DNA of 36,226 nt from the NCBI RefSeq assembly GCF_030453185.1, contig NZ_JAKDKW010000018.1:1-36226 (forward strand), in the 5' to 3' direction. Of the stretch, positions 8,908-26,093 are shown in pieces. Made by a program: the position numbers and the translations under genes. Position 1 is the first letter of the stretch; each line of letters starts with the position of its first letter. Under the pieces are notes generated by a model. The model did not search any database, was not told where the DNA came from, and saw nothing but the letters and a program-made list of their open reading frames with translations. The stretch comes from Yaniella sp. (GTDB taxonomy: Bacteria; Actinomycetota; Actinomycetes; Actinomycetales; Micrococcaceae).

Positions 8908-9879
8908 TTACTCCTCGAGGAAGAGGTCTTGGGCTGTTGGGGCGTCGCCGATGAAGTCATAGCGATCAGCGAGTTCGACCATGTCCATGAGCTGTTCAGT
9001 ATTCAGCTCGCCGTCGAGGCGCTCCATGGTGAGTGCTTCAGCATCTTCTTGTGAGATCTCGAGGAAGTCGACCAGCAGTTCGCGGGAACCTTCTTGGTCT
9101 TCTTCAGCGGCAGCCAGAGCTTCTGTCATGGCTTCACCGAAATCGGCGGCCATCTCAGGATCGTCAGCGGCCAATTCACCGGAGGTGAAGGTAACCATGG
9201 TTGCCATGCCTGGATCATTTTCCTGGAAGGAATAACCAATGAGTTCATTTTCCTCATCGGCGAGGAGACCGGAGAGGAACGGTTCTGGAATCCACACTGC
9301 ATCCGTGTTGCCACGCTCAAGCTGTGCTGGCATATCTGGGAAGGCAATTTCGGAGAATTCGAGAGCCTGTGGATCAGCGCCGTCTTGTTCGGCCAGGTTC
9401 ATCACAGTCAAGTCCCCAAGGGTATTGAGAGCATTCACCGCAGTGGTCTTGCCTTCAAGGTCTGCCCAGGTGTCAATGTCCGAGTCTGCTCGAGTGACCA
9501 CGCCGGCCACATCCTCGCCATCTTCAAGAGAGTTGGAGTATCCAGCCACGATTTTCATGTCGAGGCCCTGGTCAACCGCGGTAACAACCGACAGCGGGTT
9601 ACCAACACCAAAGTCCATCTGTCCGGCCGACACAGCAGGCAGCATCGCGGCACCGGCCGTGGAGACCTCATAGTTCACGTCGAAGCCGTGTTCTTCAAAG
9701 ATGCCGTTCTCGATGCCGTAAGCAACGCCCACGCTGGGGGCGATGGACAACACGCCGATGGTTACTTCCCGGAGTTCTTCGCCGTCGCCGGAAGCCTCTT
9801 CGCCGCCGCCACCGCATGCGGTCAGCAAAAGGGCGGCTGTAGCGGCAGTTGCGATGCCTGTCATCAGTTTGTTCTTCAT
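8908..9879 (-). CDS. Orphan ABC-importer substrate-binding lipoprotein (NitT/TauT, NMT1-like)
   Basis: A 323-residue exported solute-binding protein. The N-terminus MKNKL plus hydrophobic core ends in the lipobox LLTAC (Cys 22), followed by a Gly/Glu-rich linker, as in Gram-positive lipoproteins. The mature part shows NMT1/SsuA-like signatures (GIENGIFEEHGFDV, then PAVSAGQMDFGVGN, then AFPDMPAQLERGNTDAVWIPEPF). It is paralogous to the binding protein at 23971-24966, sharing the ENGIFEEHG, AGAAMLPAV and AFPDM landmarks. No permease or ATPase gene is adjacent and it has its own terminator, so it probably docks on a shared transporter, perhaps the one at 25150-27889. AGGAG precedes the ATG. Ligand unknown; an aromatic acid is suggested only by context. 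Confidence 0.85.
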   Translation of the reverse strand: MKNKLMTGIATAATAALLLTACGGGGEEASGDGEELREVTIGVLSIAPSVGVAYGIENGIFEEHGFDVNYEVSTAGAAMLPAVSAGQMDFGVGNPLSVVTAVDQGLDMKIVAGYSNSLEDGEDVAGVVTRADSDIDTWADLEGKTTAVNALNTLGDLTVMNLAEQDGADPQALEFSEIAFPDMPAQLERGNTDAVWIPEPFLSGLLADEENELIGYSFQENDPGMATMVTFTSGELAADDPEMAADFGEAMTEALAAAEEDQEGSRELLVDFLEISQEDAEALTMERLDGELNTEQLMDMVELADRYDFIGDAPTAQDLFLEE

Positions 9880-10078
9880 TGGTTCTCCTGGTATGAGTGC
9901 TTCCGGACGGACAACATGTACGACTAGAAACGGTATGAGGTGAGAGAGAGGATCGATAGCTGAGTTTGATCTATATATTCATCAATTGAGATCTACAATA
10001 GACCACTTCCCGTGGCATTGGAAGGGTTTATTCAACAAAATTGTTAGGTTCGTCACACGCGAATTTTTGTAAACAAAA

Positions 10079-10117
10079 GGGGCCTGTGGAAGCATCTTTT
10101 TGCTCTCCACAGGCCCC
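10079..10117 (-). terminator. Terminator of the Cou-like operon
   Basis: GGGGCCTGTGGA (10079-10090) pairs perfectly with 10106-10117, and a short inner AGCA/TGCT extends the stem. On the minus strand a TTTTG stretch follows. It lies 22 nt past the MaoC stop. Confidence 0.85.
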
Positions 10118-10138
10118 ATGCGGTAGGCCTAGAGCCCG

Positions 10139-10609
10139 TTATGCGTAGAAGCGGGACAAGAAGGTCGCTACGACTGCTGGACGCTCCTCGCCCTCGATCT
10201 CGATGGTCGAGTTGGTGACCAGGTGCAGGCCATTGCCCTTGACCTCTTTTACCTCAGCGACTTCAGCGTGCATACGGATGCGCGAGCCGACTTTCACCGG
10301 GTTTGTAAAGCGAACTTTGTCGAGGCCGTAGTTCACCTTGGTGGAGACTCCGGTGACGTCGAACAGCTCAGACCAGAACGGGATGATCAACGAGAGGGTC
10401 AAAAAACCGTGTGCGATCGGGGCGCCAAATGGTCCTTCTTTCGCACGCTCAACGTCAGTGTGGATCCACTGGTGATCGCTAGTCGCATCAGCGAAGGTGT
10501 TAATCATGTCCTGCGTGACGGTCATCCACTCGGTGGAACCCAGGTCTGTGCCTGCAAGGTCAGCAACTTTGTCGAATTCGACGACGGTACGTGCAGTAGT
10601 TTCAGTCAT
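10139..10609 (-). CDS. MaoC-type enoyl-CoA hydratase (CouM-like candidate)
   Basis: A 156-residue hotdog-fold (R)-specific enoyl-CoA hydratase. The hydratase signature is clear: the catalytic Asp/His pair in ATSDHQWIHTD (D45, H50) followed by GAPIAHGFLTLSL. It would add water across the alpha,beta double bond of an aryl-acrylyl-CoA. It is the last gene of the operon SDR-amidohydrolase-ACAD-MaoC. The ATG at 10609 is chosen over an in-frame TTG three codons earlier; AAGGA lies upstream. In the Rhodococcus Cou pathway for p-hydroxycinnamates, as I recall it, a hydratase (CouM) works with an SDR (CouN) and an amidohydrolase (CouO). Gene order and families here suggest the same role, but the exact substrate is inferred. 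Confidence 0.88.
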   Translation of the reverse strand: MTETTARTVVEFDKVADLAGTDLGSTEWMTVTQDMINTFADATSDHQWIHTDVERAKEGPFGAPIAHGFLTLSLIIPFWSELFDVTGVSTKVNYGLDKVRFTNPVKVGSRIRMHAEVAEVKEVKGNGLHLVTNSTIEIEGEERPAVVATFLSRFYA

Positions 10610-10645
10610 TGGGATCAAATTCCTTATCTGTCTTCAGTCAATGGT

Positions 10646-11824
10646 TTAGGCGAACGCGCTTTGGCCGGTAATTGCACGGCCTACAATGAGTGCGTTGATT
10701 TCGTGGGTGCCTTCGTAGGAATACACTGCTTCGGCGTCAGCATGGAAGCGAGCAACATCCGTGTCTAGGGTGATGCCGTTGCCACCACATACTTCACGAG
10801 CCAGTGCGACTGTTTCGCGAAGTTTTGAAGCGGTAAACATTTTGGCCAGTGCCGAATTCTCATCTTTGTAGACACCGGCATCTTGCTGTTCGGTGAGCTG
10901 CATGGCCAGGGCGACCGAGGCGGTGACGTTGCCCAGCATGGTGGCCAGTTTTTCTTGAATCAACTGGAATCCGGCGATCGGTTTGCCGAACTGTTCACGA
11001 TTCGTGGTGTAACGAACGGCGGCCTCATAGGCACCGGCCATCGCTCCGGCGGCGATCCAGGAAACATCGGAACGCAACAGGCGGAGGCATTTGGCGACAT
11101 CGCGGAACGAGTTGATGTTCAGCAATCGAGCATCGCCGGGCACCTGCACATTGTCGTAGTAGATGTCAGCGTTCTGCATGATGCGCAGCGAAGCCTTGCG
11201 CTCGATCTTCTCCAAGGAAACGCCCTCGGCTTCGCGAGGCACGAGGAACGCCTTGACCTGGTTATCGGCGGTATCGCGAGCGAAGGTGCACAGCACATCA
11301 GCTTGGAACGCGCCACCAATCCAGCGTTTGGCGCCATTGATGGTCCACGTTCCATCGTCGTTTTGTGAAGCCGTGGTTTGGAGTCCACCGGCAACATCTG
11401 AGCCGTGCTCCGGCTCGGTCAGTGCGAAAACGCCGAGCAGTTCGTAGTTCACGATTTTTGGATCGAGTTCTGCGACCTGTTCTGCACTACCGCCTTGTTT
11501 CACGACGGTGCGAAACAAGCCGGCTTGCGCGTTGAAGAAGGTCGCGACGTTAGTGTCGCAACGAGCCAGCTCAAAGGTTCGCATGGATTCGAAAACACCG
11601 CGAACAGATTCGCCGGCTTCCTTGAGTGCCGCAGGATTCATCAAACGCAGGGATTGCAGCGGTTCAATAATTTCTTCTGGCAGGCGATCTTCGTGCCACG
11701 CATCGTTGAGGTACGGGTATACCTTCTCGGTGAGTGTGGTGCGCAGTTCGTCCAGCACGGTTTTCTCAGCCGCGGTCAAGCGTTCCGAAAAACCGTAGAC
11801 GTCCCAGGACGGTGCTTGGCTCAC
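10646..11824 (-). CDS. Acyl-CoA dehydrogenase (glutaryl-CoA dehydrogenase-like)
   Basis: FAD-dependent acyl-CoA dehydrogenase of 392 residues. It carries the flavin/substrate-binding stretch ALTEPEHGSDV (about 133-143), the NGAKRWIGGA motif, and the catalytic base glutamate in YEGTHEIN (about E371), a context shared with glutaryl-CoA dehydrogenases. It would desaturate a saturated acyl-CoA, here perhaps a dihydrocinnamoyl-type aryl-propionyl-CoA, feeding the MaoC hydratase. It starts with GTG at 11824, overlapping the amidohydrolase stop in GTGA, so translation is probably coupled. I do not recall an acyl-CoA dehydrogenase as part of the published Cou set, so its presence could extend the pathway to saturated side chains. 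Whether it decarboxylates (true GCDH) cannot be told from sequence. Confidence 0.9.
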   Translation of the reverse strand: MSQAPSWDVYGFSERLTAAEKTVLDELRTTLTEKVYPYLNDAWHEDRLPEEIIEPLQSLRLMNPAALKEAGESVRGVFESMRTFELARCDTNVATFFNAQAGLFRTVVKQGGSAEQVAELDPKIVNYELLGVFALTEPEHGSDVAGGLQTTASQNDDGTWTINGAKRWIGGAFQADVLCTFARDTADNQVKAFLVPREAEGVSLEKIERKASLRIMQNADIYYDNVQVPGDARLLNINSFRDVAKCLRLLRSDVSWIAAGAMAGAYEAAVRYTTNREQFGKPIAGFQLIQEKLATMLGNVTASVALAMQLTEQQDAGVYKDENSALAKMFTASKLRETVALAREVCGGNGITLDTDVARFHADAEAVYSYEGTHEINALIVGRAITGQSAFA

Positions 11825-12735
11825 GCTGATGCACCACCTTGATCCAGGCTGAGAAGCTTCACAGCGTTGTCCTTGAGGATCAGTGGACGAACTTCGTCTT
11901 TGATCGGCAAGTCTTCAAACGCGGCCAGCCATTTTGGTGGTGGAATCAGCGGGAAATCGGTTCCAAAGAGCACTTTGTGCTTCAGCACGTTGTTTGACTG
12001 ACGCACCAGGGACTCAGGGAAGTACTTGGGCGACCAGCCAGATAAGTCGATGTAGACGTTCGACTTGTGGGTGGCAATCGAGTTGGCCTCGTCCTGCCAC
12101 GGCACCGAAGGGTGGGCCATGATAATCTGCAGGTTTGGAAAATCTGCGGCAACTTCATCCAACAACAGTGGGTTGGAGTAGCCGAGTTTGATACCTGCAC
12201 CGCCAGGGAGTCCGGCACCCATTCCGTTTTGTCCGGTATGGGAGAGCATCGGGAGACCAATTTCCTCCAGAGCTTCCCACAGTGGGTAAAACTCACGATC
12301 CGATGGGTCGAAACCCTGCACAGACGGGTGGAACTTGAATCCGCGAACGCCCAGCTCATCAGCCTGACGTTTCGCTTCCTCGATGGCTGCCGCACCAGTT
12401 CGTGGATCTACCGAGCCGAATGGGATCAGTACGTCGTTATTGCGTGCTGCCCCCGCGACAAGGTCGTCGATCGAGTTTGGCATGTGACCGTCAAACTGAG
12501 TGCGTGCATCCAGCGTAAAGACGACCGCTGCCATGCCGAGATCACGGTAAATATCGGCAATTTTGTCGATAGATGGCGTGCGATCTTCGGACTTGAAGTA
12601 TTTGGCTGACGCCTCGTAGAACAGTTCCGGCATGGGCTTGTGGCCCTGCTCGTCAAGTTCAATATGAACGTGAACGTCTACCGCGGAGATCGCGGAGACA
12701 TCAATGTTGGATACGTACTTTGCCACAGATACCAC
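11821..12735 (-). CDS. Amidohydrolase-2 family metal hydrolase (CouO-like candidate)
   Basis: A 304-residue TIM-barrel amidohydrolase of the ACMSD-like subgroup. Metal ligands are visible as DVHVH (H22, H24), LSHTGQNG, MAHPS and GTDFP. Position between an SDR and an acyl-CoA dehydrogenase in one operon suggests it acts on a beta-keto aryl-acyl-CoA. In Rhodococcus, as I recall, CouO is an amidohydrolase performing hydrolytic retro-Claisen cleavage to release a benzoate and acetyl-CoA. It begins with GTG directly after the SDR stop (TAG-GTG), with AAAGG 5 nt upstream. A second GTG at 12726 with AGGTGG before it is an alternative. Function is by analogy; a decarboxylase or lactonase role is not excluded. 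Confidence 0.85.
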   Translation of the reverse strand: MVSVAKYVSNIDVSAISAVDVHVHIELDEQGHKPMPELFYEASAKYFKSEDRTPSIDKIADIYRDLGMAAVVFTLDARTQFDGHMPNSIDDLVAGAARNNDVLIPFGSVDPRTGAAAIEEAKRQADELGVRGFKFHPSVQGFDPSDREFYPLWEALEEIGLPMLSHTGQNGMGAGLPGGAGIKLGYSNPLLLDEVAADFPNLQIIMAHPSVPWQDEANSIATHKSNVYIDLSGWSPKYFPESLVRQSNNVLKHKVLFGTDFPLIPPPKWLAAFEDLPIKDEVRPLILKDNAVKLLSLDQGGASA

Positions 12736-13659
12736 CTAGGCCTTTGGCTGCAGGTCTGCCGGCAGTTCTGGCATTTTTTCGCCGACTTCTTGCAGGTTGT
12801 CTTCAACGATCGAGCGACCGTTGGCCTTGAGTGCTTCGTAGTTCCAACCGCCTTCAAGGTATTCGGTAACAACTGGTTCTGGGTGGCCCCAAACCTGCAG
12901 ACGATCGCCACCGACACCAATGGCCTGACCGGTGATGTTTGCTGCGTCGTCAGACGACAGGAAGGCAACCAAGCCGGCAACGTCGGCGGCGGTACCGAAG
13001 CCAAGATCCTTGCGGAAGAAATCTGGCATGGCTTCACCGGCTTTGTCAGCTTCGATCGCAGCTGAGAAGTACGGCACGGTTTCGGTCATGGCTGTTGCTG
13101 CCACTGGGATAATTGCGTTGACAGTTACACCGGCGCGCTTCATTTCGAGTGCCCAGGTGCGCACCATACCGACGATGCCTGCCTTGGCTGCGGCGTAGTT
13201 TGTCTGACCGAAGTTGCCACGCTGACCGGTTGGAGAACCGATGGTCACGATGCGACCTTTGATCTCATTGTTCTTGAAGTAGTCGAATGCTGCGCGAACG
13301 CAGGTGAAGGTTCCGCGCAGGTGCACGTTGATAACCTGATCGAAATCGTCATCTGACATTTTCAGCAAGCTACGGTCGCGCAGAATCCCGGCATTGTTCA
13401 CCAAAATATCCAGTGTGCCAAAGTTTTCAACTGCGGCGTTCACCAGTTTTTCTGCCGTCTCGGTCGAACCGACGGCTGCAGTGACTCCAACGGCTGTGCC
13501 GCCCGCACTGGCGATGGACTCTACGGCCTGACTGGTGACCTCTTCGTTGACGTCGTTAATGACGACCTTGGCACCCTGGCGGGCGAGTTCTTGCGCGTAG
13601 GCTAGACCTAGACCAGCGCCGGATCCTGTAACGATTGCTACTTTGCCGTTCAGTGACAT
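12736..13659 (-). CDS. SDR-family 3-hydroxyacyl-CoA dehydrogenase (CouN-like candidate)
   Basis: A classical short-chain dehydrogenase of 307 residues, longer than FabG (about 245) and close to the dehydrogenase domain of type-4 17-beta-HSD/MFE-2. Motifs are TGSGAGLG (11-18), NNAG (about 88-91), a catalytic serine in TIGSPTG, and NYAAAK (YxxxK). It would oxidise a 3-hydroxy aryl-acyl-CoA to the 3-keto form. It is the first gene of the operon, with AGAGGT before the ATG at 13659, and is divergent from the MarR gene across a 129-bp region rich in palindromes. The C-terminal ~45 residues after the Rossmann fold are an extension also common in beta-oxidation SDRs. Confidence 0.88.
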   Translation of the reverse strand: MSLNGKVAIVTGSGAGLGLAYAQELARQGAKVVINDVNEEVTSQAVESIASAGGTAVGVTAAVGSTETAEKLVNAAVENFGTLDILVNNAGILRDRSLLKMSDDDFDQVINVHLRGTFTCVRAAFDYFKNNEIKGRIVTIGSPTGQRGNFGQTNYAAAKAGIVGMVRTWALEMKRAGVTVNAIIPVAATAMTETVPYFSAAIEADKAGEAMPDFFRKDLGFGTAADVAGLVAFLSSDDAANITGQAIGVGGDRLQVWGHPEPVVTEYLEGGWNYEALKANGRSIVEDNLQEVGEKMPELPADLQPKA

Positions 13660-13710
13660 TTTTGACCTCTGTTCTTTGTTGCTACATTCAACTGTTCGTT
13701 GGATATAGAA

Positions 13711-13772
13711 ATAATTGTGAATAACACTTATTGTCTATAACAACCGATAATTTTGTGGATGTCAATAATTGA
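13711..13772. promoter_or_regulatory. Divergent SDR/MarR promoter region with palindromic operators
   Basis: AT-rich intergenic DNA with at least two dyads. At 13711-13731 a 21-bp imperfect palindrome runs from ATAATTGTGA to AACACTTAT. At 13762-13772 TCAATAATTGA is a perfect odd-centred palindrome containing CAATAATTG; a one-mismatch copy, AAATAATTG, is at 13709-13717. MarR proteins usually bind such dyads in the divergent promoter between their own gene and their targets. Confidence 0.55.
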
Positions 13773-13788
13773 TGGAAAGATGTTTCAT

Positions 13789-14253
13789 ATGAACGCTGAA
13801 CTGCTGACCTCTAATGAACTCGACCCCTCGCCACTGCGCGACACCGAGCTGGTCCAAGAGATCCAATTCCTAACTGCCCGACTGGCAGCCAAGGGCAACA
13901 ACCACGCCAATAAACTTCTCGAGGAGCTCGATCTCAACGTCCGACAGTTCTCTGTCCTCGCACTCGCTGCCTCAGACCTCAAACCGACCCAACGCGAAAT
14001 GTCCGCCTTCGTGGCACTTGACCCGTCACAGATCGTCGCCCTGGTGGACACACTCGAAGATCGTGATCTGGTCAAACGCGAGACTGATCGCCGGGATCGG
14101 CGCTCCAAGAACATCGTCGCCACCGACGCTGGGGAAAAGCTCTACCGTAAGGCTCGAGCCATTACGATTACCGCTGAAGACCATGTTCTGACGAATTTGA
14201 CTGAGACCGAACGCGATCAGCTTCGTGAGTTGTTGACCAAAGCCACGCTCTAG
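13789..14253 (+). CDS. MarR-family transcriptional regulator (CouR-like candidate)
   Basis: A 154-residue winged-helix regulator. The helix-turn-helix and wing are visible in LDLNVRQFSVLALAA, then TQREMSAFVALDPSQIVALVDTLEDRDLV, then KRETDRRDRRSKNIVATDAG, the last containing the conserved DxRxxR wing motif. It would act as a ligand-responsive repressor; MarR members next to aryl-CoA ligases commonly respond to the aryl-CoA thioester. It sits divergently from the SDR-amidohydrolase-ACAD-MaoC operon and convergently with the acyl-CoA ligase, as expected for a local regulator. ATG at 13789 is chosen because GGAAAG lies 9 nt upstream; earlier in-frame starts overlap the operator-like palindrome at 13762. 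Confidence 0.88.
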   Translation: MNAELLTSNELDPSPLRDTELVQEIQFLTARLAAKGNNHANKLLEELDLNVRQFSVLALAASDLKPTQREMSAFVALDPSQIVALVDTLEDRDLVKRETDRRDRRSKNIVATDAGEKLYRKARAITITAEDHVLTNLTETERDQLRELLTKATL

Positions 14254-14277
14254 GAAACTTCAACGCCATGCAGGCAT

Positions 14278-14309
14278 CGGGACACAGCAGACGCTGTGTC
14301 CCGATTTTT
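14278..14309 (+). terminator. Rho-independent terminator of the MarR gene
   Basis: An 11-bp perfect stem (CGGGACACAGC, loop AGAC) is followed by ATTTTTTG on the plus strand, 24 nt after the MarR stop. Confidence 0.9.
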
Positions 14310-14315
14310 TGTTTG

Positions 14316-15875
14316 CTAGTTTCCGTACAGCTCGCGCAGTTGCGGCTTGCGAACCTTGCCAGATGCCGTCCGGGGCAACTCATCAACAAAGACCACAGAT
14401 TTCGGAATCTTATAGCGAGCTAGCTTGCCATCAAGATAGGACAGCACGTCGCTCTCGGTCAGATCGTGGCCTTCTCGGACCACGACTGCTGCGCGAGGGA
14501 CCTCTCCCCACTTCTCGTCAGATACCCCGAACACGGCAACGAAAGCGATCGCTTCCATCTGCGCCAGTTCTTGCTCAATCTGGGCCGGGTAGATGTTCTC
14601 ACCACCGGAGATAATCATGTCTTTCATCCGGTCGGAGATGAACAAGAAGCCGTCATCATCCATATAGCCCATGTCGCCACTGCGGAACCAGGTGCCGCCG
14701 TCATCGGTGATAAAGGACGACTCATTAGCTTCCGGCCGTTTCCAGTAACCGGAGATTACGTTGGGTCCCTGAATTTGGACTTCTCCAACTTCGTGGGGTG
14801 GTAGTTCTTTGCCATCGAGATCGGCAACACGAACGTGCGTATGCATTTGCGGCAGGCCTGCCGAGCCCATCTTTTCGCGTGAGTAGCGTCCAGGCAGTGA
14901 GGTAGCGCCGGGCGATGTTTCCGTCATGCCATATCCCATAGTGAAGCTGAGGCCGCGATCCTCATATGCCTCCAGGATGTGCAACGGCACAGCGGAACCA
15001 CCGCAGGTGAGGCTGTTGAGCGAGGAAATGTCGGTCTTTTCCCAGGCTGGGTCCTCTGCCAGGAGTTGATACGTAGTGGGCACCCCTGAGATGAAGGTCG
15101 CCTTGTGCTGCTCAATGAGATCCAGCGCTCGGCCAGGATGGAAGCGGGGCTCAAGGATGAGATGCCCACCCTTGAGAAAGGTCGGCAATACGCCCATACC
15201 AAGTGCCGCGACGTGAAACATTGGCGAGATCATCAGCGAGACCTCGTCGCTGCTGATATTCATGTCAGAAACCACATTGACGGCATTCCAAGTCAGGTTG
15301 CCGTGGGTCAACATCGCACCCTTTGGGTTACCGGTAGTCCCCGAGGTGTAAAGAATAATGGCAAGATCATCGAGCCCCACATTGAGGTTCGGACGCTCCG
15401 CACTGGCATCAGCCAACACGTCGGAATAATTCTCGAACGGCATGGCTAAGCGGCCCTCTTCGGCTGGAACGCGCGCACCGTCGTCGACGAAGATCACGCG
15501 CTCCACGTCGGTGTCTTCCACACCCGCGACAGCCAGCGGCTCCATGGTCGTCGACGCGATGAGCATCTGTGCTCCGGCATCTTCCAGGTGGAACGCCACC
15601 TCCGGCCCCGCCAGACGAGTGTTGAGCGGCACGAATACCGCGCCGATGCTCCCGAGCGCGAATAGCGTCTCCAAGAACTCCACGGAGTTCTCGCCAAGGT
15701 ACGCAACGCGGTCCCCCGACTTGATCCCGCGTTCAGTCAACGCATTCGCCAACCGATTGATCCGCTGACCGAACTGCTCATAGGTCAGCTCCAAGTCGCC
15801 CGCGGTGACCGCCATGCGACCTGCGGATTTTACCCTGCGCCGATGAATCCAATCGCCTATACCGTGATTCGTCAT
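14316..15875 (-). CDS. Acyl/aryl-CoA ligase, AMP-forming (FadD/CouL-like)
   Basis: ANL-superfamily CoA ligase of 519 residues, full length. It activates a carboxylic acid to the CoA thioester through an acyl-adenylate. Motifs in order are the P-loop YTSGTTGNPKGAML (about 172-185), GYGMTETSPG, the hinge stretch RSGDMGYMDDDGFLFISDRMKD, GGENIYPAQIEQ, and the catalytic lysine in RTASGKVRKPQ near the C-terminus. With the adjacent MarR gene and the side-chain beta-oxidation operon, the likely substrate is a hydroxycinnamate or arylpropionate, the CouL role. A medium-chain fatty acid cannot be excluded. AAGGAG precedes the ATG. It lies 128 nt downstream of the dioxygenase gene but has its own upstream region containing CAATNATTG repeats, so it may be separately transcribed. 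Confidence 0.9.
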   Translation of the reverse strand: MTNHGIGDWIHRRRVKSAGRMAVTAGDLELTYEQFGQRINRLANALTERGIKSGDRVAYLGENSVEFLETLFALGSIGAVFVPLNTRLAGPEVAFHLEDAGAQMLIASTTMEPLAVAGVEDTDVERVIFVDDGARVPAEEGRLAMPFENYSDVLADASAERPNLNVGLDDLAIILYTSGTTGNPKGAMLTHGNLTWNAVNVVSDMNISSDEVSLMISPMFHVAALGMGVLPTFLKGGHLILEPRFHPGRALDLIEQHKATFISGVPTTYQLLAEDPAWEKTDISSLNSLTCGGSAVPLHILEAYEDRGLSFTMGYGMTETSPGATSLPGRYSREKMGSAGLPQMHTHVRVADLDGKELPPHEVGEVQIQGPNVISGYWKRPEANESSFITDDGGTWFRSGDMGYMDDDGFLFISDRMKDMIISGGENIYPAQIEQELAQMEAIAFVAVFGVSDEKWGEVPRAAVVVREGHDLTESDVLSYLDGKLARYKIPKSVVFVDELPRTASGKVRKPQLRELYGN

Positions 15876-16003: not shown

Positions 16004-17005
16004 TTATGAATGACGAATACCCGCTAAGGCATCGCGGTCGATCTGCTCCTGGTTCTCCACATACGGGGTGCCGTGGGTATGGAACGTTGGCACTGTTTTC
16101 ATTCCCCAGGCCTGACCCTTGGCGCGTTCTGCCTCGGACCAGTTGACAACTGGCTGGTCAGGATTCAGAATCAACCGTGCCCCGGCGTTGGCGAACTCGA
16201 TGCGGTTACCGCCCGGCTCCCACACGTAGAGGAAGAAGGTCTGGTTAATCGCGTGCTTATAGGGGCCGTATTCGATGTAGACGCCCTCTTCGAGAAAGTA
16301 GTCTGCAGCTTTGAGAATGTCTTCGCGAGTGTCCGTGGCGAATGCCAGGTGGTGGAAGCGGCCACGCTCCCCGGTCCAGTCATCGGAGTACACGACGTCG
16401 TAGGATTTCTGTGCGAATCGGAACCATCGGGCCGCGTAGCCGCCTTCATCGAGTTCGACCTGCTCGGTCTCCCGCGACTTCATGACGTTGTCCCAGAAAT
16501 CGCCCGCGGCATTTACATCTGCGGCCAGGTAGTTAATATGGTCGAGACGTCGGGCATTGACCCCGCGACCGGGAAAACGTGAGGCCTGGTTTTTTAGGGC
16601 CGGCCGGTCTTGGTCGTCGGCAACATACAGCGTGGTGTCATAGTAGATGCCGAATTCGTGGCCGTCCGGGTCTTCGAATTCGTAGTAGGCGCCGATGCCG
16701 ACTTCTGGGTCACGCCAGCCTTTGCCCAGGCCGGTGGCTTCGATGGCCGCGACCCGGCGTTCGAGCGCTTCGGGGCTGGTAGCACGCAGCATGGTGCGGC
16801 CAACACCGTTGGTTTCGGACGCGGTGAGCTTGATCGAATAGGTTTCATATTCGTCCCAGCAGCGCAGGTACGCTGAGTTGCCGATGCGCTCAACTTCGCG
16901 CATGGCCAGCATTTCGTTGAAGAACCGCAGACTCTGGTCAAAGGTTGGGGTCAGGATTTCCACGGCGCTGATATGCGCCAGGTCGAAGTTTTCCAGTTCA
17001 GCCAT
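16004..17005 (-). CDS. Type I (VOC) extradiol ring-cleavage dioxygenase, XylE-like
   Basis: A 333-residue, two-domain vicinal-oxygen-chelate dioxygenase. Compared with XylE (catechol 2,3-dioxygenase) from memory, the iron ligands are conserved: His in RRLDHINY (H156), first His of GRFHHLAF (H218) and Glu in PGGNRIEF (E270). The second-sphere His and Tyr also match (GPYKH H251, FFLY Y260). The active-site His of XylE (H199 in KAHDVAF) is replaced by Tyr (KSYDVVY, Y202). It is the last gene of the GalD-GalB-GalC-like operon, 9 nt after the aldolase, so its substrate is expected to give oxalomesaconate, for example gallate. The known enzymes for that step are LigB-type, not VOC. ATG at 17005 has AAGGA 6 nt upstream and is preferred over the ATG at 17011. 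Confidence 0.88.
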   Translation of the reverse strand: MAELENFDLAHISAVEILTPTFDQSLRFFNEMLAMREVERIGNSAYLRCWDEYETYSIKLTASETNGVGRTMLRATSPEALERRVAAIEATGLGKGWRDPEVGIGAYYEFEDPDGHEFGIYYDTTLYVADDQDRPALKNQASRFPGRGVNARRLDHINYLAADVNAAGDFWDNVMKSRETEQVELDEGGYAARWFRFAQKSYDVVYSDDWTGERGRFHHLAFATDTREDILKAADYFLEEGVYIEYGPYKHAINQTFFLYVWEPGGNRIEFANAGARLILNPDQPVVNWSEAERAKGQAWGMKTVPTFHTHGTPYVENQEQIDRDALAGIRHS

Positions 17006-17014
17006 GATCATTCC

Positions 17015-17698
17015 TTATTCGTTGTATTTCAGGCCGGTGGCCTCAAGTTTTTCTCGCATACCGTACACATCCAGCCCCAGTTCACCGGCAGCAAGGCGTG
17101 CACGAACCGTCGCTTCTTTGGCCTCTCGCGCTCGCGATGCTTCGACCACCTCCGCCACTCGGTCCGCCGGCACGACGACGACGCCGTCAGCATCTCCCAC
17201 AACCACATCACCGGGGTTGACCAGGGCGTTGGCCACGGTGACGGGAATGTTGACCGACCCTAAGGTTTCTTTGACCGTGCCACGAGCGTGGATTGCCGCA
17301 GCAAAGACCGGAAAGTCCATCTCTTGCAGGTCTGCAATATCTCGCACACCTCCATCGATCACTAGACCAACACCACCACGAGCCCGAAAGGAAGTGGCCA
17401 ATAAGTCACCGAAAAAACCGGCATCGGATGTTGTGGTGCAGGCCGCGACCACGACGTCACCATCCTGTAATTGTTCTGCGGCCACGTGCATCATCCAGTT
17501 ATCACCGGGCTGCAGCAGCACGGTCACGGCCGGGCCGCAAAGTTTGGCGCCGTCATAGATGGGGCGCATATAGGGGCGCATCAGGCCCACGCGACCCATG
17601 GCTTCGTGGATGATGGCGGTGCCGTAGTCGCTCAGCGCTGCGACGTCGTCGGGGTTGGGACGCTGGATAGTCGTGTTGACTACACCGAGTTCATACAT
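17015..17698 (-). CDS. galC: 4-carboxy-4-hydroxy-2-oxoadipate aldolase (GalC/LigK-like, RraA fold)
   Basis: A 227-residue class II metal-dependent aldolase of the RraA-like fold. It cleaves CHA to pyruvate and oxaloacetate (the HMG/CHA aldolase activity) and may also decarboxylate oxaloacetate. The family signature is visible: GPAVTV (55-60), GDLLATSFRARG (about 97-108) and the metal/substrate stretch GLVIDGGVRD with R119 and D120. Length and motifs fit CHA aldolases better than the RNase E inhibitor RraA, and the neighbours GalB- and GalD-like genes support this. It starts at ATG 17698 with AAAGGGA upstream, 16 nt after the hydratase stop. Confidence 0.88.
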   Translation of the reverse strand: MYELGVVNTTIQRPNPDDVAALSDYGTAIIHEAMGRVGLMRPYMRPIYDGAKLCGPAVTVLLQPGDNWMMHVAAEQLQDGDVVVAACTTTSDAGFFGDLLATSFRARGGVGLVIDGGVRDIADLQEMDFPVFAAAIHARGTVKETLGSVNIPVTVANALVNPGDVVVGDADGVVVVPADRVAEVVEASRAREAKEATVRARLAAGELGLDVYGMREKLEATGLKYNE

Positions 17699-17714: not shown

Positions 17715-18737
17715 CTAGCGACCCTGGGCTGTCAGACGATCATCCAGGCGCGGGTGGATTCTGCGTGCGGTGGCTTCGAAAATGTTGTGACGATCGGTGT
17801 CTGTGAGTTCAGCGTTTTGGATGTATCGCACTGTGTCATCAAAGAAGTGTCCGGTGTTGGGGTCCTCGGTGCGCACGGCACCAATCATCTCGGAGGCAAA
17901 CATGATGTTTTTATGCGGGATCACCTCGAGCAGCGTGTCGATGCCGGGCTGGTGGTAAACGCAGGTATCGAAATAGACGTTCTTCAGCAGGTGGTCTTCC
18001 AGGTCCGGCTTGTCCAACATCATCGCCAGCCCGCGGAATCGGCCCCAGTGATACGGTGCCGCTCCCCCGCCGTGCGGGATGATCATCTTGAGTTCCGGGA
18101 ACGTGGAAAACAGGTCGCCTTCCAGTAGTTGCATGACGGCGGTGGTGTCAGCGTTCAAGTAGTGTGCGCCGGTGGTATGAAATGCCGGGTTGATCGAAGT
18201 CGAGACGTGCACCATCACGGGCAGTTGGTGTTCAATCAGTTTTTCGTAGACGGGGAACCAGTACTTCTCGGTCAGCGGCGGCGAAGTCCAGTGACCGCCA
18301 GAAGGGTCCGGGTTCAGGTTCACGGCAACAATATCGTGCTCGGTTACGCAGCGTTCGAGTTCTTCGATGACGGTGGCCGACTCAACTCCAGGTGATTGCG
18401 GCAGCATCGCAGAGGGGACGAAGCGTTCTGGATAGAGTTCGGATACCCGACCGATAAGGTCATTGCAGTGCCGCGACCAGGCGGACGAGGTTTCGAAATT
18501 TCCGGCGTGGTGCGCCATAAATGAGGCCCGCGGTGAGAAGACCTGGACATCGATGCCACGTTCATTCATCAGGCGCAGCTGATTGGGTTCGATCGACTCG
18601 CGAATTTGGTCATCGCTGATCATTGGGCCATCAACCGGTGGCGGGGCGCCGCCGTCCAACGCTGCAAGCTGCTGCTCTCGCCAAGCACCCAGCGGCTCCG
18701 GCGCCGTCGTATAGTGCCCGTGAATATCAATGATCAA
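17715..18737 (-). CDS. ligJ: 4-oxalomesaconate hydratase, amidohydrolase family (LigJ-like)
   Basis: A 340-residue amidohydrolase-superfamily hydratase that adds water to oxalomesaconate to form 4-carboxy-4-hydroxy-2-oxoadipate. The N-terminus MIIDIHGHYTTAPEPL closely follows that of Sphingobium LigJ as I remember it, with metal ligands H6 and H8. Later ligands lie in VMVHVST and IIPHGGGAAPYHWGR. A glutamate in FASEMIG corresponds to the catalytic Glu region of LigJ. The start is TTG with AAAGGA six nt upstream; no ATG fits the family N-terminus. Flanking genes supply the tautomerase before it and the aldolase after it. GalB of Pseudomonas does the same reaction with an unrelated fold, so ligJ is the better symbol. 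Confidence 0.88.
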   Translation of the reverse strand: MIIDIHGHYTTAPEPLGAWREQQLAALDGGAPPPVDGPMISDDQIRESIEPNQLRLMNERGIDVQVFSPRASFMAHHAGNFETSSAWSRHCNDLIGRVSELYPERFVPSAMLPQSPGVESATVIEELERCVTEHDIVAVNLNPDPSGGHWTSPPLTEKYWFPVYEKLIEHQLPVMVHVSTSINPAFHTTGAHYLNADTTAVMQLLEGDLFSTFPELKMIIPHGGGAAPYHWGRFRGLAMMLDKPDLEDHLLKNVYFDTCVYHQPGIDTLLEVIPHKNIMFASEMIGAVRTEDPNTGHFFDDTVRYIQNAELTDTDRHNIFEATARRIHPRLDDRLTAQGR

Positions 18738-18750
18738 TGCGTTTCCTTTG

Positions 18751-19914
18751 CTATACCGAATGGTTCAAACCTGTGGACTCATGCCCGGGATCCCAGATCT
18801 CGCGGGGCACGTAGAGCTCACCGCGTGAGATGAGCCGGGCGGTGCGCGTGTTGCCCGAGGCGACGACCGCGCCGTCGTCATTTAAATCCACCAGGGCTTC
18901 AAACATGCCAGTGGGGTGTTCAATTGCCACCGACTGTTGGCGGCCGCTGCCTGCAGAGCCAACGGTCGCCGCAACGGAGCCTTCCATAACCAACGCGGTG
19001 GCCACGGTGACTGCCGCGAGCACGCCGATCGATTCGTGCACCCTGTGTGGGATGAAGCTGCGCGTACTGATCGCCCCGCCGGAAACCGGCGGTGCAACCA
19101 GCGTCATTTTGGGGTATGACGCCTCGGTCACATCACCGAGGCCCATTACCTCGGCCGCGGCGAGGCGGAGCTGTTCAACACAAGTCTTGAGCTCGCTATT
19201 CTCACTGAGTGCGGCGACCGATTCGTAGCCGGTCACGCCAAGATCCTCGGCCCGGATAATCACCAGTGGCTGACCGTTATCAATCAGCGTCACCGTGTAA
19301 TCAGTGCCATCAGCCGTGACAACATCGGTGATACTGCCAGTGGGGAGCAGGCCCTCGGCAATGGAGCCGGCGGTGTTAAGGAACCGAATATTGACCGGCG
19401 ATGCTGTACCGGGCACGCCTGCGATTTCTGTTTGACCGCTGTACTGAACGAATCGCAGACCGCCCACCCGGGGAGTGTGGATGCTAATGCGCGAAATCAA
19501 ACCGGTGTTTGTGGTTCGCACGACGACGTCGGTGGTATCTTCACGCGGTTCGATCAGCCCGGCTTCGACGGCAAACGGGACGACGGCGGCCAGCATATTG
19601 CCGCAATTCTGGGTGGTCTGCACCGTCGCTGCGTCGGGCTGCAGCTGCACGAAGGTGAAGTCGAGATCGACGTCAGCCACTTCCGATGGTCCCACAATTC
19701 CGGCTTTGGATGTCAGCGGGTGGCCGCCCCCGATGCCATCAATCTGCAGCGGATGTGGGCTTCCCATGACGGATAACAAGACCTGATCCAGTACGTGCCG
19801 CTCCTCGGGGAGATCTGCGGCCAAAAAGAAGGGACCGCGCGAGGTGCCACCCCGCATGAGGACAAACGGGAGTGCCGTCTGATCGCCAGATCTGTGTGCA
19901 CTGCTGGTGGGCAT
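18751..19914 (-). CDS. galD: 4-oxalomesaconate tautomerase (GalD-like, PrpF family)
   Basis: A 387-residue protein of the PrpF/diaminopimelate-epimerase-like fold. It would interconvert keto and enol forms of 4-oxalomesaconate. Visible family features are PFVLMRGGTSRGPFF (about 16-30), GIGGGHPLTSKAGIV, QNCGNMLAAVVPFA and GRQQSVAIEHPTG near the C-terminus. PrpF proteins isomerise aconitates, but with LigJ- and GalC-like genes 13 and ~1050 nt downstream the GalD assignment is better. It is the first gene of the operon, with AAAAGGA before the ATG at 19914, and is divergent from the GntR regulator. Confidence 0.87.
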   Translation of the reverse strand: MPTSSAHRSGDQTALPFVLMRGGTSRGPFFLAADLPEERHVLDQVLLSVMGSPHPLQIDGIGGGHPLTSKAGIVGPSEVADVDLDFTFVQLQPDAATVQTTQNCGNMLAAVVPFAVEAGLIEPREDTTDVVVRTTNTGLISRISIHTPRVGGLRFVQYSGQTEIAGVPGTASPVNIRFLNTAGSIAEGLLPTGSITDVVTADGTDYTVTLIDNGQPLVIIRAEDLGVTGYESVAALSENSELKTCVEQLRLAAAEVMGLGDVTEASYPKMTLVAPPVSGGAISTRSFIPHRVHESIGVLAAVTVATALVMEGSVAATVGSAGSGRQQSVAIEHPTGMFEALVDLNDDGAVVASGNTRTARLISRGELYVPREIWDPGHESTGLNHSV

Positions 19915-19987: not shown

Positions 19988-20060
19988 AATACTTCCGCGG
20001 CTTCAAGGTGGCTACTATGGAAGCAATACAGCTTTCACATAAGCATTGGAGACTTCCGGT

Positions 20061-20729
20061 ATGGCCAGCACCTCGACAACAACGCAGTCCAACGAGACTC
20101 GACCAGAACTCTCACTGACGGAGCAACTGCGTCAAGACATTGTGACGGGAAATCTCGTGCCACATCAGCGTCTGGTCGAAGCCGATGTGGCCGAAGAGCA
20201 CGGGGCCTCTCGCGGTGAAGTGCGCTTGGCATTGAATGAGCTGATCGCCGAGGGACTGGTTGAGCGCATCCCAAATCGTGGCGCACGGGTTCGGAAGGTA
20301 TCGCTTCAGGAGGCCATAGAAATTACGGAAGTGCGGGCCGCCGTGGAGTCGCTGTGTGCGCGGAAAGCCGCCGAGAAAATTACCGATGCTCACGCGGCCG
20401 AGCTTCGCGATATCGGTCAACAGATGCAGCTGGTCGTCGACCGCGGCGACCGCGAAGCATATTCACAACTCAACCGGACGCTTCACGGTCGCGTGATTGA
20501 GATTGCCGATCAGCCGACCGCCGCCGAGACGATTGCCCGGCTTCGCGGTCAGGCCATTCGATACCATTTCCAATTGGCTACCCGTCCTGATCGGCCGCAA
20601 GTCTCCCTGCCACAACACATGGCAATTATCGAGGCGATTTGCACGCGAAACCCCGATGCTGCCGGTCGCGCCATGCACGAGCATTTAGCTTCAGTGACCG
20701 AAGCGATTGCGGCATCTGCCGGTGCCTAG
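20061..20729 (+). CDS. GntR-family transcriptional regulator (FCD subgroup)
   Basis: A 222-residue regulator. The N-terminal winged helix (about 20-80) shows LRQDIVTGNLVPHQRLVEADVAEEHGASRGEVRLALNELIAEGLV and IPNRGARVRKVS, the FadR/GntR pattern. The C-terminal all-helical FCD domain has acidic and histidine positions for metal/ligand binding (LNRTLHGRVIEIA, HMAIIEAI, AMHEHL). It probably represses the divergent galD-ligJ-galC-dioxygenase operon and responds to a pathway acid such as gallate or oxalomesaconate. ATG at 20061 is chosen because GGAG sits 9 nt upstream. Its stop codon shares the tetranucleotide CTAG with the stop of the convergent PadR gene. Confidence 0.88.
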   Translation: MASTSTTTQSNETRPELSLTEQLRQDIVTGNLVPHQRLVEADVAEEHGASRGEVRLALNELIAEGLVERIPNRGARVRKVSLQEAIEITEVRAAVESLCARKAAEKITDAHAAELRDIGQQMQLVVDRGDREAYSQLNRTLHGRVIEIADQPTAAETIARLRGQAIRYHFQLATRPDRPQVSLPQHMAIIEAICTRNPDAAGRAMHEHLASVTEAIAASAGA

Positions 20730-21319
20730 TGTTCTGTGGGCTCGAAGGTGTCTAGCAGTGCGAGGCCTTGGGTGGCCCAGGTAATTTCTGCCCTGGCTTG
20801 TTGCAGGATACCTTCATAGGCGAAGACCTTAAACTGCGTGATCTTGCTGTGCTCACCTGCCGGATATTGGGCGAGCCTGCTCTGGTGAATAGCCGAGCTG
20901 CCGTCGTGGAGTTCTTCGATTTGGAACTGCACATCGTCGACGACCTGCTGATGGTGTTCGAGGTGATCCTTGAGGCAGCGGCGGGCTTCGTCGTCGCTCG
21001 CGAATTCGAAATAGGCTGACCGGAGCCGAACCTCACTTCGCTCCGGCCGATACGCGACCGGCTTGGCGTACCACTCGCGCAGGTAGGCGATACCGGCATC
21101 GGTAATCGCATACTCGGTTTTCGTAGCGCCCTTTGAACCCCAGGGAACCGGATAGCCGGTCAGTAGCTCTTCTGCTTGCATTTTCTTGAGCTCGGGATAA
21201 ATTTGTGAATCCGGTGCGTGCCATAAGAACCCCACCGACGAGTGGAAGTTTTTGGCAATGTCATAGCCGGTGCTGGGACCGGAGGACAGCAACGTTAGCA
21301 GTGCAGATCGTAAACTCAT
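20726..21319 (-). CDS. PadR-family transcriptional regulator
   Basis: A 197-residue regulator with the PadR winged helix at the N-terminus (LRSALLTLLSSGPSTGYDIAKNF, FLWHAPDSQIYPELKKMQAEELL, TEYAITDAG) and a helical Vir_act_alpha_C-like C-terminal domain. PadR proteins classically repress phenolic-acid genes and are released by hydroxycinnamates or related ligands. It lies 105 nt downstream of the O-demethylase gene on the same strand, so it may be the third gene of metF-ligM-padR or be separately transcribed. No good ribosome site precedes the ATG; the upstream sequence contains a TAGTGTAGTAGA-like element. Target genes are inferred to be metF and ligM. Confidence 0.85.
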   Translation of the reverse strand: MSLRSALLTLLSSGPSTGYDIAKNFHSSVGFLWHAPDSQIYPELKKMQAEELLTGYPVPWGSKGATKTEYAITDAGIAYLREWYAKPVAYRPERSEVRLRSAYFEFASDDEARRCLKDHLEHHQQVVDDVQFQIEELHDGSSAIHQSRLAQYPAGEHSKITQFKVFAYEGILQQARAEITWATQGLALLDTFEPTEH

Positions 21320-21424: not shown

Positions 21425-22837
<1,413 letters not shown>

Positions 22838-22883: not shown

Positions 22884-23747
22884 TTAGAATTTTTTGGTGA
22901 AGTCCTGAGCCCATTCGGCGGTTTTTGCCATGCCGCCGAAGGTGTAAAAGTGCACGCCAACGGTGCCGGTGAAGTTTGTTGTTTCAGTTTCGGCTGCCAG
23001 GTCTTGCAAGAATTTATCTGGACCGGCGCTGCCCATCAGGTTGGTAAGTGAGAAACCGTATTTTTTGACGATGCCCGCCGAGGTGCCCACGCCGAAGCGT
23101 TTGGCGTAGTTCAACAGTCGACGAATGCCTGCCGGGCCAGGCGTGCCAATCCGCACGGGGGCGCTAATATTTTTAGCAGCGAGCTCGTCGAGCCACTTCG
23201 CCACTGGTGCAGTGTCGAATCCAAATTGCGTCAGTATCACGGCACTCATATCGTGCTCGGCCAAGTAGTCGACCTTGCCGCTCAGTTCGCGCGAGAGCAC
23301 CTCTTCAGAGATATCCGGGTGGCCCTCCGGGTAGCCAGCGATCGACACGTCTTTGACGCCGAATTCTGGGAATACTCCGGATTGCAGCATCTCCAGCGAT
23401 GAGCCGTATGGGCCGAGTGGCTCTGCCGGGTCACCGCCCACAGCAAATACATGCTGTGCCGCATCAACGTCGGCCAGGGCCTGGAGAAATTCTCTGAGCT
23501 CGTCTTCGCTGTGGATACGGCGAGCCGAGATATGGGGAACGGGGATAAAGCCAAGATCTTTTACTGCTTTTGCAGCGGTGACGCGCATTTGCAGATCTTC
23601 GTTGCCCAGGAACGTGACATTGACCCGCGAGCCCTGCGGGATCAATGGAGCAGCTTCACGCAGAGCCTCCACGTCTTTGCCGGTCATTTCGAGAGAAAAG
23701 TCTTGCATCAACGCGCGGACACCCGCGGTTGTAGCTGATTGGGACAT
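22884..23747 (-). CDS. metF: Methylenetetrahydrofolate reductase
   Basis: A 287-residue FAD-dependent MTHFR of the MetF type (E. coli MetF is 296). Landmarks are FSLEMTGKD with a substrate-binding glutamate region, VNVTFLGNE, PVPHISARR, HVFAVGGDPAEPLGPY, VSIAGYPEGHPDI, ILTQFGFD and the C-terminal PVRIGTPGPAG. Beside a THF-dependent demethylase its role is probably to run in the direction that reoxidises 5-methyl-THF, as in the ligM-metF-ligH locus of Sphingobium. No ligH or formyl-THF ligase is seen here. ATG at 23747 is preferred (GAGG 7 nt upstream) over an in-frame GTG at 23759. It is the first gene of the minus-strand metF-ligM unit, with 58 nt between the two. Confidence 0.9.
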   Translation of the reverse strand: MSQSATTAGVRALMQDFSLEMTGKDVEALREAAPLIPQGSRVNVTFLGNEDLQMRVTAAKAVKDLGFIPVPHISARRIHSEDELREFLQALADVDAAQHVFAVGGDPAEPLGPYGSSLEMLQSGVFPEFGVKDVSIAGYPEGHPDISEEVLSRELSGKVDYLAEHDMSAVILTQFGFDTAPVAKWLDELAAKNISAPVRIGTPGPAGIRRLLNYAKRFGVGTSAGIVKKYGFSLTNLMGSAGPDKFLQDLAAETETTNFTGTVGVHFYTFGGMAKTAEWAQDFTKKF

Positions 23748-23770
23748 GTGAAACCTCACTTTTCGTTAAA

Positions 23771-23970: not shown

Positions 23971-24966
23971 CTACGAGTCGTCACGAACCAATTCGTTAAC
24001 ATCGATTGATTCATCAATCAGACCGGTCTCTTCAGACAGTTCGATAATGCGTTCTGTCGATTCCATATTGATGTCTTGAGGGAATTTCGGCATGTTCAAG
24101 TCATCGATAATTTCTGGATCAATTTCCGAATACTCAGGCAAGATAGCCTTTGCCTCCTCGGGGTTATCTTCGGCGTATTGCTGGGATTCCTTCATCGCGG
24201 CGACAAACGCGTCAACAAGTTCAGGGTCCTCCTCGACCATGTCCGTCGAAGCGAAGTATCCGGCAATCATCAGATCTTCAATCGGCTCAGCATAGGGCGA
24301 GTAAATTTCGCGGGCGCCGGCATCTTTTGCAAGCGTCGCGAATGGTTCGACCGCCATGATGGCGTCGACGTTGCCGGATTCTAATTGTCCGCCCATATCC
24401 GGGAAGGCCACCTCGACCAGGTTCATCTTCTCCGGATCGCCGTCAGCCTGACTCAAACCTTCTTTGAGGACGGTGTCGTTGATGTTGTTGAGGGTATTAA
24501 CCGCAACGCTTCGCCCTTCGAGGTCTGCGATAGATTCCGCATCCGAGTCTTCAGGTACGAGCAGAGACGAGAAGTCTTCTCCGGCGTTACCGGTGGTCTG
24601 CGGCCCGGGAGCAACAAGCTGCAGCGGCAACCCCTGGGATTGTCCGATCACCAGCGAGGTGACGTTCGAGAACCCGAAATCAAAATCACCCGACTGCACG
24701 GCCGGGATGATGGCTGCCCCACCCTGAGCCAGTGTTAGATCGAGCTCAAGGCCATGCTCCTCAAAAATGCCTTCTTTTGCGCCCAGGTAGATAGGTGCGA
24801 CGTCGACAATCGGAATAACACCGATCGAGACTTGGGTGAGTTGACCATCTTGGGCCGCGTTGTCACCATCGGCGGGAGCGTCTTCTCCCCCACCACAGGA
24901 TGTGAGTACCAGCAGTCCTGCGGCTGCGGCCGCCGCAATACTGCCTCGAATACCGAGTGTTTTCAT
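23971..24966 (-). CDS. ABC-importer substrate-binding lipoprotein (NitT/TauT, NMT1-like)
   Basis: A 331-residue lipoprotein with signal peptide and lipobox LTSC followed by GGGEDAP. The NMT1/SsuA-like core includes YLGAKEGIFEEHGLEL, GGAAIIPAVQSGDFDFGFSN and AFPDMGGQLESGNVDAIMAVEPF. It captures the solute outside the membrane for the permease pair encoded upstream. ATG at 24966 is chosen because GAGGAG lies 7 nt before it and the signal peptide then has normal length; an in-frame ATG at 24984 is less suitable. It is the last gene of the operon permease-permease-ATPase-SBP, though 184 nt separate it from the ATPase with a strong hairpin in between. Ligand unknown, possibly an aromatic acid. Confidence 0.87.
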   Translation of the reverse strand: MKTLGIRGSIAAAAAAGLLVLTSCGGGEDAPADGDNAAQDGQLTQVSIGVIPIVDVAPIYLGAKEGIFEEHGLELDLTLAQGGAAIIPAVQSGDFDFGFSNVTSLVIGQSQGLPLQLVAPGPQTTGNAGEDFSSLLVPEDSDAESIADLEGRSVAVNTLNNINDTVLKEGLSQADGDPEKMNLVEVAFPDMGGQLESGNVDAIMAVEPFATLAKDAGAREIYSPYAEPIEDLMIAGYFASTDMVEEDPELVDAFVAAMKESQQYAEDNPEEAKAILPEYSEIDPEIIDDLNMPKFPQDINMESTERIIELSEETGLIDESIDVNELVRDDS

Positions 24967-25101
24967 GATGAGCTCCTCTTGCAAGTGCGAGGCTTCACGA
25001 GAGTTTAGTGAAGCAAGTCACAACGGTATGCGGATTGCATGCGATCGTCAATGGTTTTTCGAGTTAACGCTTATGAGCGTATTTTTTTGTGTTAACCCAG
25101 C

Positions 25102-25128
25102 GTGGGGACCTGGTTGCCAGGTCCCCAC
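25102..25128 (-). terminator. Strong hairpin between the ABC ATPase and binding-protein genes
   Basis: A perfect 12-bp stem (GTGGGGACCTGG, loop TTG) lies 22 nt past the ATPase stop. No U tract follows on the minus strand. Being inside the operon, it may be a partial terminator or an mRNA-stabilising stem that lets the binding protein be expressed at a different level. Confidence 0.65.
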
Positions 25129-25149
25129 AACAGTTGAAAAGCCAAGTGT

Positions 25150-26055: not shown

Positions 26056-26093
26056 AGCAAGATATCCTTCAAAAAATTGTGTGAGCGTTGTTG

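Follow-up and report, generated by a model that had tools for sequence, protein, structure and literature searches.

A complete gal operon ends in a VOC-type dioxygenase gene

We analysed a contig of 36,226 nucleotides from Yaniella sp., referred to below as the window. It carries an operon in the order galD-ligJ-galC-dioxygenase, with intergenic gaps of 13, 16 and 9 nt; regulator, demethylase, reductase and transporter genes lie upstream of it. The genes are:

16004 to 17005, minus strand (read from 17005 to 16004): VOC extradiol dioxygenase gene, 333 amino acids, proposed gallate 4,5-dioxygenase forming 4-oxalomesaconate (OMA); Tyr202 codon at 16402-16400.
17015 to 17698, minus strand: galC/ligK, 4-carboxy-4-hydroxy-2-oxoadipate (CHA) aldolase (TIGR02798, 368 bits, cut-off 304.5; matches the solved 3noj).
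17715 to 18737, minus strand: ligJ, OMA hydratase of the amidohydrolase type, with a TTG start (PF04909; matches the solved OMA hydratases 2gwg and 6dwv/6dxq/6dxs, E down to 1e-150).
18751 to 19914, minus strand: galD, OMA tautomerase (NF033377, 451.8 bits, cut-off 440; matches the solved OMA Delta-isomerase 6p3h/j/k).
20046 to 20729, plus strand: divergent GntR/FCD regulator, probably of the gal operon (PF07729/PF00392; adjoins the operon in many relatives).
20726 to 21319, minus strand: PadR-family regulator of the demethylase module (PF03551; accompanies LigM-MetF in relatives).
21425 to 22825, minus strand: ligM, tetrahydrofolate-dependent vanillate/3-O-methylgallate O-demethylase, supplying gallate (NF047885, 814.8 bits, cut-off 580; matches the solved LigM 5tl4 and 5x1i).
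22884 to 23759, minus strand: metF-like methylenetetrahydrofolate reductase, recycling the methyl carrier (PF02219 weak, just under cut-off; adjoins LigM in relatives).
23971 to 27889, minus strand: NMT1-type ABC transporter (binding protein, ATPase, two permeases), possibly for aromatic-acid uptake (PF09084 for 23971-24984; open reading frames).

The dioxygenase could start at either of two in-frame ATG codons, 17011 or 17005. An AAGGA ribosome site lies 6 nt 5' of the latter and favours the 333-residue product, on which our residue numbering is based. The initial annotation had placed the gene correctly at 16004-17005; its strand is minus. The galD-ligJ-galC operon that it described is confirmed as well, with GalD and GalC scoring over curated cut-offs and LigJ identified by its matches to solved structures. 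The gal set of OMA tautomerase, OMA hydratase and CHA aldolase is thus complete in the window. Cleavage of gallate between C4 and C5 gives OMA, which GalD, LigJ and GalC convert to pyruvate and oxaloacetate. The claim that such an operon requires an OMA-forming dioxygenase is well supported, and so is the linkage of the VOC enzyme to OMA genes in several phyla described below. On the other side of the operon, positions 8908-15875 hold genes for CoA-ligase, SDR, amidohydrolase, acyl-CoA dehydrogenase and MaoC proteins, together with a MarR regulator and another NMT1-type binding protein; this is a separate cluster for acid/CoA catabolism, conserved in Yaniella and Enteractinococcus.

No LigB-domain (PF02900) protein was found in the genome to which the window belongs (2.6 Mb, 97% complete). 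That genome encodes PcaH with a second intradiol gene adjoining, i.e. PcaGH, for protocatechuate, and two further LigM/DesA-type demethylases. With protocatechuate served by PcaGH and LigB missing, the VOC enzyme is the only candidate for cleaving the gallate made by LigM. A second PrpF/OMA-tautomerase-like protein is encoded elsewhere in the genome (G000:C150:3155-4213; 300 bits, under cut-off).

A tyrosine occupies the second-sphere histidine site of a type I extradiol dioxygenase

A Pfam search returned the glyoxalase/VOC domain PF00903 as the sole domain of the protein, which is a two-domain type I (VOC) extradiol dioxygenase. Its best NCBIfam model is catechol_2_3 (TIGR03211), at 277.1 bits, below the curated cut-off of 320.2. 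Sixteen PDB entries match in sequence, all of them type I extradiol enzymes or related to these, among them 9wgj (51% identity), AphC/3lm4 (33%), HPCD and XylE. With an AlphaFold model of the protein (pLDDT 77, pTM 0.80), Foldseek returned AphC, 3lm4, XylE, LapB and HPCD at TM 0.7-0.84; 9wgj is not among the matches listed (fold library to 8 April 2026). The 2-His-1-carboxylate iron site is present as H156, H219 and E270 and is kept in almost all relatives, one row having Arg at the second His position. Also retained are the second-sphere residues H251 (XylE H246) and Y260 (XylE Y255). PF00903, the solved homologues and the intact iron site all bear out the first description of the product as a XylE-like VOC enzyme with all three iron ligands.

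The motif KSYDVVY of the window protein is the counterpart of KAHDVAF in XylE, and its tyrosine, Tyr202 (codon TAC), stands at the position of XylE H199 and HPCD H200. A HMMER alignment to 1f1x, the solved HPCD-like protein used here, and MAFFT alignments set Tyr202 opposite the His of XylE, of HPCD-like proteins and of 3lm4/AphC. Thus the second-sphere His is missing from the window protein and replaced by Tyr, as the initial annotation had claimed; the alignments extend this to 102 of 102 members of its clade. In HPCD, His200 passes a proton from the catechol on to O2, and without this residue the rate is reported to be vanishingly small (PMC10760822). The second-sphere His is best described as conserved in the studied type I members rather than as strictly defining them.

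Displacement of the His by a local alignment shift was considered and rejected, since the only histidines close to the site, the ligand H219 and the adjoining H218, are found in XylE too. To the question raised at the outset, whether a His is conserved elsewhere in the site, the answer is accordingly divided: none has shifted nearby, but the distant, clade-invariant H309 could reach the pocket. It sits in a C-terminal FHTHGTP motif, modelled with too little confidence (pLDDT <50) to place it, and could be a substitute base for the lost His.

The tyrosine marks a single clade

Tyr is found at this site in 82 of 82 aligned close relatives, window protein included (Yaniella, Enteractinococcus, Kocuria, Rothia, Brevibacterium, Microbacterium, Arthrobacter, Sinomonas and others). 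When homologues from the genome sample and from plasmids are added, Tyr is present in 102/102 sequences within the clade and His in 31/31 outside it, none being ambiguous. The clade includes Actinomycetota, Alphaproteobacteria, Pantoea and Thermus, and the lowest identity in the Tyr set is 48%. In a 51-row maximum-likelihood tree all Tyr rows fall on one side of one branch (support 100/97), i.e. a single state change; the tree is unrooted, and the direction from His to Tyr is suggested by the wide occurrence of His outside the clade. The deepest Tyr row, on a longish branch, is 9wgj. Further positions that are fixed or almost fixed among the clade members, but seldom seen elsewhere, include Y53, N158, K200, K250, A252, T256, E263, R294, Q298, W300 and H309.

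The natural Tyr first noticed in this gene is therefore real, but it is not peculiar to it: it marks a whole clade, 9wgj included. A chance, misread or wrongly sequenced codon is ruled out by the Tyr in 102/102 sequences, and an inactive remnant was rejected given the invariance of all ligands and of the whole set of clade-specific residues.

Tyr-type genes are linked to OMA genes across phyla

In 70 of 80 Micrococcales loci, one or more of the genes for GalC, GalD and an OMA hydratase lie within about 9 kb of the Tyr-type gene, the hydratase being LigJ-type in 19 and GalB/PIG-L-type in 46. Gene order varies, from GalB-GalC-GalD-dioxygenase in Microbacterium and dioxygenase-GalD-LigJ-GalC in some Arthrobacter to the GalD-LigJ-GalC-dioxygenase of the window. 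An ABC binding protein and ATPase lie beside Tyr-type genes in other genera too (loci L080-L082). Across 297 Actinomycetes genomes, Tyr-type genes were found in 15, of which 14 adjoin an OMA tautomerase; the fifteenth (genome G273) adjoins GalC and a LigJ-like amidohydrolase. In the same sample, neither OMA tautomerase nor OMA hydratase genes adjoin any of 20 His-type loci, and several of these carry the DmpG, 4-OT and aldehyde dehydrogenase genes of ordinary meta pathways. The difference in OMA-tautomerase linkage (14/15 against 0/20) gives a Fisher p of 6e-9, a value not corrected for shared ancestry.

Annotation pipelines name Tyr-type genes catechol 2,3-dioxygenase or VOC family protein. 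A standard 2,3-dioxygenase for catechol or alkylcatechols, placed in a gal operon by chance, would agree with those public records, with TIGR03211 as the best curated model and with AphC/3lm4, crystallised with 4-ethylcatechol, as the nearest characterised solved relative. We nevertheless hold it to be very improbable: the score of 277 bits stays below the cut-off of 320, the linkage to OMA genes is kept across phyla despite rearranged gene order, and no DmpG or 4-OT meta-pathway genes are adjacent, unlike at several His-type loci.

A LigM-family gene is in range at 63 of the 80 Micrococcales loci, so that 3-O-methylgallate arises within this same pathway and might itself be cleaved, in a DesZ-like reaction leading through CHMOD/PDC to OMA. 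There is little room for this route, since the adjoining LigM strips the methyl group, the operon has no recognisable CHMOD esterase or PDC hydrolase and gallate alone suffices for homologues linked to tannase, an enzyme that releases gallate. Such neighbours are seen in Agrobacterium, where a tannase (PF07519, 438 bits) follows the gal operon, and in two Arthrobacter, where a tannase-like gene (~41% identity) lies ~5-6 kb from the Tyr-type gene.

Beyond Actinomycetota, the Tyr-type gene occurs with GalB, GalC and GalD in Roseibium, Agrobacterium, Thioclava and Pantoea, and with GalB-like and GalC genes in Thermus oshimai. In the latter, plasmid pTHEOS01 of strain JL-2 (L118, 6956-13355) carries the Tyr-type VOC gene together with GalB-like, LigK and 4-hydroxybenzoate 3-monooxygenase genes, and its Tyr-type enzyme is possibly a VOC-type protocatechuate 4,5-dioxygenase. 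The same activity could be proposed for the window, with the OMA enzymes serving a protocatechuate meta pathway and LigM making protocatechuate from vanillate. LigM does also demethylate vanillate, the nearby 4-hydroxybenzoate 3-monooxygenase of Thermus suggests protocatechuate for some members, and LigB enzymes overlap in substrate, PcaA for example taking both protocatechuate and gallate (PMC8431788). That pathway needs CHMS dehydrogenase and PDC hydrolase, however, neither of which was recognised in the operon; PcaGH is present in the own genome, and tannase neighbours indicate gallate. Protocatechuate thus seems an improbable substrate here, if a less remote one than catechol or 3-O-methylgallate.

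At ten of the 80 Micrococcales loci no gal genes are linked; among these ten genomes, six have no OMA tautomerase match at all and six have a ~300-bit LigB elsewhere. Some clade members may therefore serve other pathways or act in trans.

Two further proteins recur in these operons. A DUF1932/6-phosphogluconate-dehydrogenase-like NAD(P) protein appears in OMA operons with VOC-Tyr and LigB alike (L118:10855-11622, L115:396-1283, L116:549-1424, L117:5166-6041; also L188 and L189). A DUF6282 protein is encoded alongside the Tyr-type gene in the operons of Thermus oshimai (L118:8588-9508) and of actinomycete G273 (L172 near 11500), in both of which a search for an adjoining OMA tautomerase found none; it is possibly an unrecognised pathway enzyme.

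VOC and LigB genes alternate beside the OMA tautomerase

A strong OMA tautomerase occurs in 22 of the sampled genomes, and in 14 of them a Tyr-type VOC gene is adjacent, i.e. VOC-Tyr DISPLACEMENT of LigB. A LigB gene lies within ~4 kb of the tautomerase in four (G023, G266, G095, G133), and both families adjoin it in none. The operon of G095 (L190), GntR-LigB-GalD-GalC-GalB-ABC transporter, has the same layout with the other dioxygenase. No LigB protein was found in 29 of 47 Tyr-type genomes. This alternation is the pattern expected of non-orthologous displacement. It agrees with the initial proposal of a VOC dioxygenase where a LigB-type enzyme would be expected, the protein having PF00903 only and its genome lacking LigB.

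In four genomes (G231, G179, G229, G114; loci L184, L185, L186, L187) the OMA tautomerase scores above its curated cut-off and adjoins neither a VOC-Tyr nor a LigB gene; no ring-cleavage gene was recognised beside it by eye. On a Roseomonas gilardii plasmid both families share one cluster, a LigB protein (L112:5411-6268; 387 bits to the gallate dioxygenase model, cut-off 412) lying two genes from the Tyr-type VOC enzyme.

A proposed route from gallate to OMA

From its operon context, the dioxygenase is probably a type I gallate 4,5-dioxygenase that converts gallate to OMA, a non-orthologous replacement of GalA/DesB. Gallate is expected to be the best substrate because LigM and MetF make gallate, protocatechuate has PcaGH and a tannase adjoins some homologues. 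Of the new substrates first envisaged, gallate is thus the favoured one; the demethylase next door speaks against 3-O-methylgallate as the molecule cleaved.

In the mechanism that we propose, LigM and MetF would supply gallate from 3-O-methylgallate (syringate/lignin), and tannase would do so in other hosts. H156, H219 and E270 would hold Fe(II), which gallate would chelate via its 3- and 4-hydroxyls, with O2 binding beside the substrate and the hydroxyl on C5, the carbon to be cleaved, pointing into the O2/second-sphere pocket. There Tyr202, in place of the His200 base, might hydrogen-bond O2/superoxide or the C5-OH and relay protons, and would thereby be a mark of vicinal-triol selectivity. 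The ring would open between C4 and C5 to 4-oxalomesaconate, which would pass through GalD, LigJ and GalC to pyruvate and oxaloacetate. XylE and HPCD relatives cut next to the ring substituent. OMA needs a cut distal to the carboxylate, unlike that of HPCD, so the binding pose must differ; the clade-specific K200, K250, R294 and Q298 are candidates for holding the carboxylate differently.

The detailed role of Tyr202 as a stand-in for His200 is one that we infer, with clearly less confidence than the substrate. The altered chemistry suggested at first does not follow, the expected product being the same OMA as that of GalA/DesB and the part of the Tyr a matter of interpretation. About evenly balanced, in our judgement, is the fuller proposition of a second, independently evolved gallate dioxygenase family on the catechol 2,3-dioxygenase fold, spread over three phyla, which would dispense with the catalytic His, use Tyr (perhaps with the third hydroxyl of the substrate) as proton donor/acceptor and cut distal to the carboxylate.

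Significance and comparison with known systems

The breakdown of syringyl lignin and of hydrolysable tannins is channelled through gallate. The gallate dioxygenases that we found described are LigB-type only: DesB and GalA (PMC12314914), those of AromaDeg (PMC4250580) and PcaA of Pseudarthrobacter (PMC8431788). No published VOC-type gallate dioxygenase was found in a search largely confined to literature outside subscription journals; a 2019 paper on an actinobacterium that consumes syringate, cited in PMC8671467, falls beyond that range. With gallate dioxygenases known as LigB-type, genome-based predictions miss gallate use where the gene is named catechol 2,3-dioxygenase, as would apply to many Microbacterium, Arthrobacter, Agrobacterium, Pantoea and other carriers of the Tyr-type gene. 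If our assignment is true, the family represents a clean non-orthologous displacement at the ring-opening step and, with Tyr throughout an entire clade, a natural test case for the much-studied role of His200 in extradiol cleavage.

The closest solved relative, PDB 9wgj, shares 51% identity, the Tyr at the same site and a C-terminal RGQAWG..FHTYGTP motif. It was deposited as 'Catechol 1,2-dioxygenase', the '1,2' name being that of an unrelated intradiol activity; a literature search found no publication on it, and its deposition shows that others are at work on the Tyr-type family. The alkylcatechol 2,3-dioxygenase AphC of RHA1 (7q2a, 3lm4) has the same type I fold and iron ligands and a similar C-terminal region, and gives the best Foldseek matches (TM 0.83-0.84), but AphC/3lm4 differs in its 33% identity, its second-sphere His and its crystallisation with 4-ethylcatechol. 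HPCD shares the fold and the iron ligands, and counterparts of its His248 and Tyr257 are kept in the window protein, but it cuts next to the substituent. Its proton shuttle, His200 (PMC10760822), is Tyr in the window protein. GalA of Pseudomonas putida and DesB of Sphingobium catalyse the conversion proposed here, gallate to OMA, with the same downstream enzymes, on a LigB (PF02900) fold unrelated to the window protein. The protocatechuate 4,5-dioxygenase PcaA of Pseudarthrobacter is likewise actinobacterial and was shown by NMR to convert gallate to OMA (PMC8431788), but it is a type II (LigB) enzyme.
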